This document shows, one piece after another, positions 991 through 3,979 of a DNA stretch of 25,008 bases. The position numbers and the translations under genes are program-made. The DNA is from a virus. Under the pieces are notes generated by a model, which made no database searches, was not told the DNA's origin, and was given only the letters and a program-made list of their open reading frames with translations. Each line of letters begins with the position of its first letter. Within the stretch, counting starts at the first letter, position 1. The stretch is taken from IMG/VR virus record IMGVR_UViG_3300044237_003108, positions 1-25,008 of that record; one strand, 5' to 3'.

Positions 991-1218
991 ATGTCACTAG
1001 AATTTTGCCACGATTGCAGCATGGAATTCGATACTGATTGGTTCGAAGAATGCCCAAGGTGCTCACATGAAAAACCCCTTCGAGTCCGAGAAGCGGCGGA
1101 CCCTAACCTTACGAGAGCGAGCAAAGTTCTTTGCCTCTCGTGGGGGACAATGCGAGGGATGCGGCGTCAAGATACGATCGGGTTCCGTATGGGACATCGA
1201 CCATATACTGAGCCTTGA
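991..1218 (+). CDS. Small zinc-ribbon protein; distal part overlaps HNH gene out of frame
   Basis: The ORF starts at ATG 991, one base after the previous stop, with AAGG about 10 bases upstream. Residues 6-24 contain two CxxC knuckles (C6, C9 and C21, C24), the layout of a short treble-clef or rubredoxin-like zinc ribbon. From residue 26 onward the gene overlaps the HNH gene in another frame for 152 bases, and that tail has no recognisable pattern. All recognisable protein therefore lies upstream of the HNH start. Either the tail is genuine overlap-encoded sequence, or an originally short zinc-ribbon protein lost its stop codon. Function is unknown; many small phage zinc-ribbon proteins bind nucleic acid. 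Confidence 0.55.
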   Translation: MSLEFCHDCSMEFDTDWFEECPRCSHEKPLRVREAADPNLTRASKVLCLSWGTMRGMRRQDTIGFRMGHRPYTEP

Positions 1219-1417
1219 AAACGGCGGCACCAATGATCTCGATAATTTGCAGCTGCTTTGCCAGAATTGCCACGGCGCAAAGACGCCCAAGGACCGAAAG
1301 CAAGCTGCCACTACGAAACGCAAATACACGAAAGCCGTTGTGCCCAACAAGCACAAGCGGGGCGGCTTTCGTGGTTGGCGCAAGATGAATGGTGATCTGG
1401 TATGGCGGGAACGCTAA
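1067..1417 (+). CDS. HNH endonuclease
   Basis: This 116-residue protein has a compact ββα-metal nuclease fold. The zinc pairs C29/C32 and C65/C68 frame the active site, with D45-H46 (WDIDHI), N60 and H69 forming the D/H-N-H triad. The basic tail (KHKRGGFRGWRK) is shared by small standalone HNH proteins of alphaproteobacterial phages and probably contacts DNA. The start at ATG 1067 is preceded by AAGGTG with five bases of spacing, so it is initiated independently although it lies inside the preceding ORF. Such nucleases can nick or cleave DNA in packaging, replication or homing. Here it sits in the early/integration block, not beside terminase, so its role cannot be fixed. Confidence 0.88.
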   Translation: MKNPFESEKRRTLTLRERAKFFASRGGQCEGCGVKIRSGSVWDIDHILSLENGGTNDLDNLQLLCQNCHGAKTPKDRKQAATTKRKYTKAVVPNKHKRGGFRGWRKMNGDLVWRER

Positions 1418-1734
1418 CGCTCTCTCAAATCGCAGAAAAGACCGGCATGAGCCTGCGTTTTTGGCAGGCCAAGGCTAAAGCTGGCGCTATCCCCAACTTA
1501 AAACGCCTGCGGTCGCCGAGTGGAAAAGGTTGTAAATACTTTGTTCAAGCTGATGGATTCGATGCATGGTGGGCCGGGCAGCTTGAGGATGTGAAGCCGT
1601 GTCAGGAAAGCATTATCTGTATCAGCGGGGCGAATGGTGGTGGTTTAAGAAGCGCCACAAAGGCAAAACGATTCGAGAGCCACTCGAAACGAGATCTCTT
1701 AGACAAGCTCAAGAACGTCGCGACCGCTTCTTAG
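1402..1734 (+). CDS. Excisionase-like (MerR-type winged helix) DNA-binding protein
   Basis: The N-terminal 60 residues read as a small MerR/excisionase-type winged helix: a helix-turn-helix (LTLSQIAEKTGMSLRFWQAK), a short wing (PNLKRLRSPSG) and a closing helix with aromatic residues (FDAWWAG). Proteins of this size directly upstream of a tyrosine integrase usually act as the recombination directionality factor, bending attachment-site DNA to favour excision. ATG 1402 overlaps the end of the HNH gene by 16 bases. From residue 66 the frame overlaps the integrase start for 136 bases, and the overlapped tail looks non-conserved. Assignment rests on fold pattern and position. Confidence 0.72.
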   Translation: MAGTLTLSQIAEKTGMSLRFWQAKAKAGAIPNLKRLRSPSGKGCKYFVQADGFDAWWAGQLEDVKPCQESIICISGANGGGLRSATKAKRFESHSKRDLLDKLKNVATAS

Positions 1735-2675
1735 CCGAACTTAGCGCCGGCCGATGGGGCGAGCAACGCGACAAGACTTTCAATGAAGCCGTTCACAAGT
1801 GGATTGATACGCATCTGCCAACGCTCAAGCTCAAGTCAGTGATGCGATACCGCGTGAGCCTCACGCATTTACTTGAGGATTTCGACGGCGTCCCACTCAA
1901 AGATATTACCAGCAGCAAGCTATCAGATTTTGAAGCCCGCCGCCGCAAGTCAGGCGCGACAAACCCCACTATTCGCAGAGATTTGGACTGTCTGTCTTCT
2001 CTGTTTTCAAGCTGCGAGGAATGGGAATGGTTAGACAGCAATCCAGCGCTGGCGTACAAGCGCAAACGCGCCCGCAAGGGACTGAAAGAAAGCGCACCGA
2101 AGACGCGCTATCTCTCTGTGGAGGAAGAGGAAGCTATTCTGTCAGAGGCGACAGCAACGCTTTATAGGGCGGTTGCATTTGCGATTGATACTGGTCTGAG
2201 GAAAGAAGAGCAGTTTTCTCTTCTCAAGTCTGACATTGACCTGGCCAAAGGCGTTATCAACGTTCGCCCTGAGATCACCAAGACAACGCGCGCGCGACAA
2301 GTGCCACTGCTTCCTCGGTCACTGGAGATCGTCAAGTATCTACTTGAGAACGTTCGCGGCCCTTACCTGTTCACAAGTCCCGCGACTGGCAAGCGGTACT
2401 CTGAAAAGTCAAACACGTTCTATGCACGGCTACAGCGCACCCGGACTCGGTTCGGAGTTCCGCCTGTATCATGGCATGACTTGCGGCGAACTGCCGGTTG
2501 CCGTCTTTTGAACGTCCATAGACTGAGCATGCATGAGGTTTCGTTGTGGCTTGGCCACCAGTCGATTCAGCAGACCGAACGAACTTATGCCTTCCTTGAG
2601 CAAGAACGGCTCAAAGAGGCGGTTGAGGCACAAAGTGGGGCACAATCGATAATCAAGGGAGCCGCAAACGATTGA
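1599..2675 (+). CDS. int: Tyrosine-family site-specific integrase
   Basis: This 358-residue phage integrase begins at GTG 1599, with GAGGA about 10 bases upstream. It has an N-terminal arm-type DNA-binding region (residues 1-50, aromatic YQRGEWWWFKKR), a core-binding SAM-like domain (about 55-155) and a catalytic domain (about 170-340). The active-site residues are complete: R201 (DTGLRKEE), K228 in the β-hairpin, H293 and R296 (HDLRR), H320 (LGH) and the nucleophile Y330. It should join attP to the host tRNA attB through a 3'-phosphotyrosine intermediate. The presumed attP core lies 33-78 bases past its stop, and a 19-bp repeat likely to be an arm site lies inside its own 3' end at 2627-2645. 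The overlapping upstream gene probably encodes its directionality factor. Confidence 0.96.
   Translation: MSGKHYLYQRGEWWWFKKRHKGKTIREPLETRSLRQAQERRDRFLAELSAGRWGEQRDKTFNEAVHKWIDTHLPTLKLKSVMRYRVSLTHLLEDFDGVPLKDITSSKLSDFEARRRKSGATNPTIRRDLDCLSSLFSSCEEWEWLDSNPALAYKRKRARKGLKESAPKTRYLSVEEEEAILSEATATLYRAVAFAIDTGLRKEEQFSLLKSDIDLAKGVINVRPEITKTTRARQVPLLPRSLEIVKYLLENVRGPYLFTSPATGKRYSEKSNTFYARLQRTRTRFGVPPVSWHDLRRTAGCRLLNVHRLSMHEVSLWLGHQSIQQTERTYAFLEQERLKEAVEAQSGAQSIIKGAAND
2627..2645. repeat. 19-bp direct repeat, copy 1 (candidate integrase arm site)
   Basis: The sequence ggcacaaagtggggcacaa lies within the last codons of int. An identical copy in the same orientation is at 2824-2842. The repeat itself contains gcacaa twice. 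The two copies sit 62 bases left and 70 bases right of the presumed attP core, the geometry expected of P and P' arm-type integrase sites. Confidence 0.75.
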
Positions 2676-2707
2676 TAAATATGCATTATTCACAATAGAA
2701 CACGTGT

Positions 2708-2753
2708 AATCATAATCCGCGTGTCGGGGGTTCAAGTCCCTCCTCCGCTACCA
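2708..2753 (+). other. attP: Phage attachment site attP: 3' fragment of a CAT-anticodon tRNA
   Basis: From about 2708 the sequence matches the 3' part of a tRNA in perfect register: anticodon loop ATCATAA (2709-2715, anticodon CAT), 3' anticodon stem tccgc, five-base variable loop gtgtc, T-stem ggggg/ccctc, T-loop ttcaagt (2731-2737), 3' acceptor strand ctccgct, discriminator a and cca (2751-2753). No complementary 5' half exists upstream: the five bases before the loop do not match a gcgga stem. This is therefore not a functional tRNA gene but the identity segment that restores the host tRNA after integration. The target is a tRNA with anticodon CAT, probably elongator Met, although Ile2 is possible. 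Confidence 0.87.
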
Positions 2754-2928
2754 ATTTCCCTTGGTTTTTCAGTATTATTTGATGTCTAATGCGCGCTATT
2801 CGCTCAATGCGCGATATGCGCGTGGCACAAAGTGGGGCACAAACTGTTCTTTCACTGTTCCTCTTAGACACTTTTGTTTTGAGTTTTTTGATCTCGGCCT
2901 CAAGCTCTTTAATCTTCTTGTCGCTCAT
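2710..2928 (-). CDS. Small coiled-coil protein whose 3' end runs through attP
   Basis: ATG at 2928 is preceded by AAGAAGG about eight bases upstream, a good ribosome site, and the first 25 residues (MSDKKIKELEAEIKKLKTKV) form a clear lysine/glutamate-rich coiled coil. After residue 30 the frame is a by-product of other signals: it reads across the 19-bp repeat and then the antisense of the tRNA fragment (ending EEGLEPPTRGL), with TGA inside the anticodon triplet at 2710-2712. The start is convincing and the tail less so. If real, integration would replace the last residues with host-encoded sequence. It would be the last gene of the late operon. No function is recognised. Confidence 0.5.
   Translation of the reverse strand: MSDKKIKELEAEIKKLKTKVSKRNSERTVCAPLCATRISRIERIARIRHQIILKNQGKLVAEEGLEPPTRGL
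2788..2817. repeat. Two short direct repeats beside attP
   Basis: The related 12-mers aatgcgcgctat (2788-2799) and aatgcgcgatat (2806-2817) are spaced 18 bases start to start, between the attP core and the right-hand 19-bp repeat. They could bind the excisionase or a host bending protein, given their near two-turn spacing, but nothing in the sequence proves this. Confidence 0.4.
2824..2842. repeat. 19-bp direct repeat, copy 2 (candidate integrase arm site)
   Basis: This is an exact copy of the 2627-2645 repeat, ggcacaaagtggggcacaa, in the same orientation on the other side of the attP core. It falls inside the small - strand coiled-coil ORF at 2710-2928. Confidence 0.75.
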
Positions 2929-2943
2929 GGGCCCACCTTCTTG

Positions 2944-3132
2944 TTAAGCGTACCACTTGCCTTGGTTCTCAAATTCCTCGGCAACTTCCGCAAATCCTGA
3001 CTGTCGCAAGATAGTCAGCATCAACTCATCCGCATAGACGTGCGCCATCTCTGTATCGGCGGTAGCCCAAATCTCCTTCATCCGTCTTAGCGCCTCTTCG
3101 GGAGATATTTTCTCTTCAGTTTCATCTGCCAC
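2944..3132 (-). CDS. Small acidic helical protein of unknown function
   Basis: The frame is open from ATG 3195, but I prefer GTG 3132 (62 residues, VADETEEKISPEEALRR onward). It follows the upstream stop at 3147-3149 directly and carries AGAAGG eight bases before it, whereas ATG 3195 overlaps the upstream gene by 49 bases and lacks a clear ribosome site. The product is acidic and α-helical, with no membrane segment or known motif. It belongs to the run of tiny genes at the distal end of the late operon, between lysis genes and attP, where phages keep dispensable or host-interaction genes. Confidence 0.6.
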   Translation of the reverse strand: MADETEEKISPEEALRRMKEIWATADTEMAHVYADELMLTILRQSGFAEVAEEFENQGKWYA

Positions 3133-3416: not shown

Positions 3417-3641
3417 TTAATCATCTAACCCGTCTTCGTGCTCAAGTTTTCCGCGCTTGTGTATCTCACGGAACAATTCAAGCTCTCTCTTTTCCAGGTC
3501 AGCATGTGTCTTCTTAATCTGCTCTTGACCGTCAAACATATCCCTGTGGTGCACCGCAGATCTAAGTCGTTCCATGAGTACAACAGTACGGATTAGATTG
3601 TTGATCAATCGTCTTGTCGATAACTCGCTAAAGTCGCTCAC
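3417..3641 (-). CDS. Small helical protein of unknown function
   Basis: GTG at 3641 begins a 74-residue protein, preceded by AGGTG with five bases spacing and lying nine bases after the stop of the upstream HTH gene. The protein (VSDFSELSTRRLINNLIRTV then charged helices to an acidic EHEDGLDD end) is soluble and strongly helical. It has no cysteine pair or catalytic motif and resembles no family I can name. The region upstream of its start, GGTGCCAGT, is nearly the same as that of the gene at 3147-3401. Confidence 0.62.
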   Translation of the reverse strand: MSDFSELSTRRLINNLIRTVVLMERLRSAVHHRDMFDGQEQIKKTHADLEKRELELFREIHKRGKLEHEDGLDD

Positions 3642-3649
3642 ACTGGCAC

Positions 3650-3979
3650 CTAATCCTCTGTCTTCTTTGGTCGTCCGGCAGCATCGTTATTTCTTGGGTA
3701 TTCCACCTGCCACCACCGTTTCATCGTCTGATACTGAATGCCCGCCAGCCGTGCGACTGCCGAATTCTTCAACTCATGATCCTGCCAATACTTGAACGCC
3801 AACGCACGCTGTTCATCGCTGATCCGGTTATGGGCGATGCGCTCGCGCTTCTCTTCGGTCAACCCGCCGCCTGTCATGAGCCCGGCAATCAATGACGCCT
3901 CGCACTCCGGTTCATGCAGGGTATTGTCGGCGGTTTCGATGACAACCATTGAACATAGAGGCCCGCACGTTGACCACAT
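3650..3979 (-). CDS. Small HTH protein, possible regulator or packaging-associated factor
   Basis: The ORF is 109 residues from ATG 3979; ATG 3949 (99 residues, MVVIETADNT) is equally possible, since neither has a strong ribosome site. Residues 50-95 form helices containing a helix-turn-helix (ELKNSAVARLAGIQYQTMKR, then WWQVEYPRNN) of the homeodomain-like type used by transposase N-termini and small terminases. The protein ends with GRPKK, the core of an AT-hook-like minor-groove contact. It should bind DNA. A small-terminase role is conceivable because the late operon lacks an obvious one in this window, but the size is small and the large terminase is not adjacent, so I leave it as a DNA-binding protein. 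Confidence 0.62.
   Translation of the reverse strand: MWSTCGPLCSMVVIETADNTLHEPECEASLIAGLMTGGGLTEEKRERIAHNRISDEQRALAFKYWQDHELKNSAVARLAGIQYQTMKRWWQVEYPRNNDAAGRPKKTED

Follow-up and report, generated by a model that had tools for sequence, protein, structure and literature searches.

Direct repeats flanking a tRNA-Met attP core are very probably arm-type sites of a viral tyrosine integrase

Phage lambda relies on a tyrosine integrase whose small N-terminal domain binds arm sites flanking the core to the left and right; the sites of its winged-helix directionality factor lie near one of these arm sites (PMC4880445). Putative arm sites around RNA-gene cores are also well known, both from mycobacteriophages (PMC3203893) and from ICEMlSymR7A (PMC11963761). 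The attP regions of mycobacteriophages L5, Giles and members of Clusters K and L have a tRNA or tmRNA core flanked on either side by pairs of arm sites (PMC3203893, PMC10865867), and arm-site variants among Cluster K1 phages are matched to changes in the integrase N-terminal domain (PMC3203893). The alphaproteobacterial element ICEMlSymR7A, which encodes the integrase IntS, has several arm sites, one of them adjoined by the winged-helix directionality factor (RDF) RdfS (PMC11963761). Tandem direct repeats spaced by about one helical turn serve directionality factors as binding sites (PMC7498355). P2 Cox and phage 186 Apl (PMC7498355) are winged-helix binders of direct repeats, as is BldC, for which 9-bp repeats are given as cited in PMC11963761. 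The viral locus described here shares with these systems a tyrosine integrase with a predicted arm-binding domain, putative arm-site pairs on both sides of a tRNA core, and a candidate winged-helix directionality factor with candidate sites adjoining one arm site.

The stretch of DNA analysed, hereafter the window, is a viral record of 25,008 nt (IMG/VR IMGVR_UViG_3300044237_003108, positions 1 to 25,008) whose genes include those for head, tail and internal virion proteins, as identified by PHROG family search. A preliminary description had reported perfect 19-bp direct repeats lying 62 and 70 nt from an attP core. The coordinates and strand of the two copies of GGCACAAAGTGGGGCACAA (Table 1) prove correct, as does their 100% identity, and both distances agree with the core placed here. 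Even when 3 mismatches are allowed, the window contains no further match. The 19-mer consists of two GGCACAA half-sites separated by five bases and hence repeating with a 12-bp period, such that the attP region holds four half-sites, two on each side of the core and all in a single orientation. Across 38 sites from 19 loci, half-site self-identity is 0.71 at a lag of 12, compared with 0.12-0.43 at the other lags tested. The earlier proposal that each repeat is an arm site is upheld, with the refinement that each repeat comprises two half-sites rather than a single site.

Both copies had also been assigned to open reading frames, and this coding location had been advanced as an argument for arm binding. 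The left copy does lie in frame within the last 17 codons of int, where it is read as V-E-A-Q-S-G-A-Q-S. The right copy overlaps two ORFs, 2710-2928 (-) and 2761-3000 (+), neither of which has support, and it is probably not within a real gene, so that the argument from coding location does not hold on this side. ORF 2710-2928 (-), for which no significant Pfam or PHROG family match was found, runs antisense through the tRNA core, terminating in ...VAEEGLEPPTRGL, and looks like a spurious translation of tRNA antisense.

An Rfam scan of positions 2600-2900 returned no match above threshold, which is unsurprising for a fragment of a tRNA, and ARAGORN found no complete tRNA in the window; the identity of the core was taken from plasmid-borne tRNA-Met genes instead. 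Over exactly 46 nt, the core is 95.7-97.8% identical to tRNA-Met(CAT) genes, recognized as tRNA-Met by ARAGORN, on plasmids of the two Alphaproteobacteria Sphingomonas parapaucimobilis and Qingshengfaniella alkalisoli. The int gene ends 32 nt before this core. When the attP region was compared directly with phage records at the nucleotide level, the sole match was a tRNA gene. No clear signal for an accessory bending site (IHF-like) was evident: mean best mismatches to the IHF consensus were 2.35, compared with simulated values of 2.74 on the left and 2.85 on the right, and the matches are only slightly better than those of shuffles.

Table 1. Coordinates of the attP module in the window and of arm-like sites in related loci
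Feature	Location	Strand	Remarks
Candidate excisionase, winged helix-turn-helix ORF	window, 1402..1734	+	136-bp overlap with int start, other frame
int, tyrosine integrase, 358 aa	window, 1599..2675	+	Pfam PF00589 E 5e-20; PHROG integrase E 5e-62; lambda Int-like model
Left arm site (putative)	window, 2627..2645	+	half-sites GGCACAA 2627-2633, 2639-2645; within int 3' end; exact match
attP core	window, 2708..2753	+	tRNA-Met(CAT) 3' part, anticodon region to CCA; 46 nt
Four tandem 9-bp units	window, 2788..2823	+	AATGCGCGC TATTCGCTC AATGCGCGA TATGCGCGT; abut right arm site; candidate excisionase (RDF) sites
Right arm site (putative)	window, 2824..2842	+	half-sites GGCACAA 2824-2830, 2836-2842; exact match
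Third arm-like site in int	L015 3202-3221, L019 3198-3217, L031 3207-3226, L032 3207-3226, others		motif scan
Near-consensus arm sites, Azospirillum argentinense plasmid p1	L065 2303-2322 and 2487-2506		near tRNA-Ser(GCT), opposite strand

The catalytic residues R201, K228, H293, R296, H320 and Y330 of the window integrase are invariant across 33 aligned integrases. In its predicted structure (mean pLDDT 90), strands at residues 7-10, 13-20 and 23-28 and a helix at 34-50 precede the core-binding domain, and the model aligns to full-length lambda Int from residue 1 (Z 20.9, 323 aligned residues). No Pfam arm-domain match was found for this protein; fold and domain order predict a small N-terminal arm-binding domain ahead of the core-binding and catalytic domains. 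Two genes upstream of int lies an HNH endonuclease gene at 1067-1417 (+) (PF01844 E 1e-13).

Relatives were collected from viral contigs in two rounds of searching, first with the integrase as query and next with an alignment, which yielded 45 loci, the first being a second record with an identical integrase. Among viral contigs, one other record has the exact 19-mer, and its integrase is 100% identical to that of the window. In 24 loci besides the duplicate record, with the window and L010 counted, int is followed by the 3' end of a tRNA; the cores of relatives include the 3' ends of tRNA-Gln and tRNA-Cys, named from sequence, with tRNA-Gln also identified by ARAGORN in two prophages. An initial search for left-right similarity with 19-nt windows gave the correct pair for part of the loci and noise for the rest, and because of this noise it was replaced by a leave-one-out motif scan. 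Here, a position weight matrix seeded with the window repeat was retrained without each test locus and its near duplicates. The scan places the left and right sites of the window at ranks 1 and 2 of 49,978 positions, and in most of the 24 core-bearing loci (about 7,400-50,000 positions) both sites rank 1 to 4.

The sites detected in relatives are always on the int strand. Left sites typically end 79-85 nt before the T-loop G (105 nt in one subgroup), and right sites start 62-89 nt after the CCA. Relatives with diverged sites encode integrases that are 33-51% identical to that of the window, though the core is another tRNA (Gln, Cys). The presence of arm sites in related phages had been set beforehand as a test, and diverged versions do flank the core left and right in almost every locus in which a core could be placed. 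Scores for the left site are poor in L022 and L051, and right sites are weak or missing in L013, L035 and L040; the record of L040 has a single core, and its right site was not found. The motif scan detected no arm motif in L046 and L050, nor in L052-L055, L067 and L068, whose integrases (about 24-30% identical) served as negative controls.

Left and right sites within a locus match one another better than they match the sites of other loci (14.7 versus 13.2 of 20 positions, p 5e-5). Differences among the Met, Cys and Gln classes drive this covariation, which lacks significance when Gln-class loci are taken alone (p 0.33). Relatives of the Gln class often carry a third arm-like site inside int (Table 1), which precedes the left site by about 300 bp and is again read in two codon phases. 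The int gene of the window has no such site, its best candidate, at 2290, scoring below zero. Separately, the tRNA-Ser-targeting locus L046 has at 3630-3860 a repeat of its own, GGGGTTATAG (right: GGGTTATAGCAGGGGGTTATAG; left: GGTTATAGATAGGGG), which is possibly a different arm sequence suited to its divergent N-terminal domain.

Divergence of the arm sites was compared with that of each integrase domain over 18 loci. Arm-site distance correlates with distance in the N-terminal domain at r 0.72, compared with 0.39 for the core-binding domain and 0.55 for the catalytic domain. Given the catalytic domain, the N-terminal domain retains a partial r of 0.55 (p 0.0002 by Mantel-type permutations, which leave shared ancestry in the correlation), whereas the catalytic domain given the N-terminal domain has a partial r of 0.01. 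The integrases of L045, L046 and L050 score 167-192 bits in the catalytic domain and 25-31 bits in the N-terminal domain, and the motif is absent from these loci, L045 having been scanned without a located core. The integrase of Azospirillum argentinense (29.7% identity) scores 84 bits in the catalytic domain and 61.5 bits in the N-terminal domain, and its near-consensus sites score 27.6 and 28.0 bits. By comparison of sequences, the site sequence thus appears to follow the integrase N-terminal domain rather than the catalytic domain. We lean, with some reserve, towards a broader reading in which the arm-site code can be read by comparison: the N-terminal domain and the tandem GGCACA-N6-GGCACA would evolve together across changes of target tRNA and catalytic domain, while the arm DNA at the int 3' end would dictate the C-terminal tail peptide, with codon phase free.

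Two relatives are represented by integrated prophages. The L035 record (64 kb) and the L013 record (59 kb) each contain two copies of the core, of which the distant one belongs to an intact tRNA-Gln gene (ARAGORN; anticodons CTG and TTG). After this distant core, a right site, ACACACAAAAGTCGGCACAG or CCGCACAAGAGTCGGCACAG, is found at the usual distance. In both prophages the right site lies 59-62 kb from the int end, beside the intact tRNA-Gln gene, and the int-side junction carries only the left site. The weak right sites scored near int in L013 and L035 fit prophage ends, with the arm sites split between the junctions on integration. This partition is seen in the prophages of these two relatives. 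Both prophages also have an extra arm-like site beyond the right site, at 568-587 in L060 and on the reverse strand at 371-390 in L061.

Homologs of the winged helix-turn-helix ORF that overlaps the start of int occupy the corresponding position in 28 further loci. The overlap of 1402-1734 with 1599-2675 would entail two-frame coding at the integrase N-terminal domain, and a similar overlap occurs in about 28 relatives. Of the 29 members of this ORF family, 26 match HTH_17; the excisionase families phrog_66 and phrog_1840 are matched by 20/29 and 7/29, respectively, and 8/29 also match phrog_57, a terminase small subunit. The window protein itself has no PHROG match and falls below the Pfam cut-off. 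Its fold (VIA-align) is closest to that of BldC (Z 8.1), followed by P2 Cox (4lhf, 6.8), RdfS (8dgl, 6.7) and Tn916 Xis (1y6u, 6.1), values that are modest for so small a domain. From its fold, the family matches of its relatives and its position, this protein is a candidate directionality factor.

Candidate binding sites for such a factor lie immediately beside the right arm site, where four 9-bp units are arrayed in tandem (Table 1). Across 18 loci, self-identity in the 46 nt preceding the right site reaches 0.43 at a lag of 9 and 0.38 at a lag of 18, versus about 0.26 otherwise, and two flanking control stretches lack a peak at these lags. The unit varies by phage, being GCGC-rich in the window and CGGACA-like in L017. 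By analogy with the factors described above, the winged-helix protein may be the one that pairs with this array.

Taken together, these observations argue that the two 19-bp repeats are very probably arm-type binding sites of the integrase encoded beside them. This reading is supported by the conservation of flanking sites, by the right site at the other end of the prophages and by the tracking of site sequence with the N-terminal domain. The repeats could instead serve another DNA-binding protein of the phage, such as a repressor or excisionase, whose place of action happens to be attP; the gene beside int codes for a conserved winged-helix protein, and proteins of this fold bind direct repeats near attP (PMC7498355, PMC11963761). 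We regard this as improbable, since site divergence tracks a domain of the integrase, since the distant Azospirillum integrase with its similar N-terminal domain retains the sites, and since the separate 9-bp array is better suited to an excisionase.

It is less probable still that the left repeat merely encodes a conserved C-terminal sequence of the integrase and that the right repeat is a fragment derived from the 3' end of int by duplication or recombination. The left copy does share the reading frame of int and the two copies are identical in the window, as such an origin would predict, but the match ends with the 19-mer, and the right copies of most relatives differ from the left ones yet keep the motif. 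Moreover, relatives read the left motif inside int in two codon phases, as AQxxAQ in phase 1 and TKxGT in phase 2, and the left site region lies past the int stop in L012, L014, L022 and L037. Because two codon phases yield different peptides, selection would be acting on the DNA and not on the peptide, and this frame-independent conservation inside int cleanly illustrates how selection for a DNA site overrides protein sequence. A chance repeat, for which nothing speaks beyond the short length of the repeat, has a negligible probability: shuffled windows contain a mean of 0.02 matches to the 19-mer, with two matches in 0/100; exact direct repeats of at least 15 nt within 1 kb number 2 in the window versus 0.05 expected; the longest such repeat over 100 simulated windows is 16 nt; and the motif is conserved over about two dozen loci.

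If the repeats are integrase arm sites, a mechanism can be proposed from the lambda system (PMC4880445). The N-terminal domain, with its three strands and one helix in about residues 1-55, would bind the half-sites, while the C-terminal domains would bind, cut and rejoin the core. One N-terminal domain from each of four integrase subunits could occupy the four half-sites, bridging the arms to the core as in phage lambda. Upon integration, the int end would keep the left pair, and the tRNA end would receive the right pair. A directionality factor would be required for excision, a role that most likely falls to the winged-helix protein, which might oligomerise on the 9-bp array by the right arm site.

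A repeat noticed in a single genome can thus be extended to an attP module with putative arm sites, a tRNA-Met core and a candidate excisionase with its candidate sites, in phages known mostly from metagenomes. The conserved grammar provides a search motif for attP, attL and attR of this integrase clade, and the pairs of N-terminal domains and arm sites constitute a ready data set on how such domains choose arm sequence. A literature search for the arm-site sequence near attP, with subscription journals mostly outside its reach, found no description. What is new here is the sequence and grammar of the sites themselves, in a lineage for which the literature searched yielded no earlier description.

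Compared with lambda, the window integrase is 18-19% identical and its sites differ in sequence; lambda has five P/P' arm sites (P1, P2, P'1-P'3), whereas the window has one tandem 12-bp pair per side. Unlike lambda, the window also has a tRNA core, an int gene read towards that core and a left site within the int 3' end. The mycobacteriophage attP regions have other site sequences and int on the opposite side of the core, and the Cluster K1 pairs are mutually inverted, whereas the window sites are all direct. The arm consensus of ICEMlSymR7A, TGKTGGTATC, is unrelated to that of the window (PMC11963761), and rdfS is encoded away from intS, whereas the candidate excisionase of the window overlaps int. 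For P2 Cox, phage 186 Apl and BldC, the binding of direct repeats is described in PMC7498355 and, for BldC, through PMC11963761; the corresponding role of the window protein is inferred. The assignment of the window module to the lambda-type (heterobivalent) tyrosine integrase attP regions, as one of the ordinary kind, is well supported.
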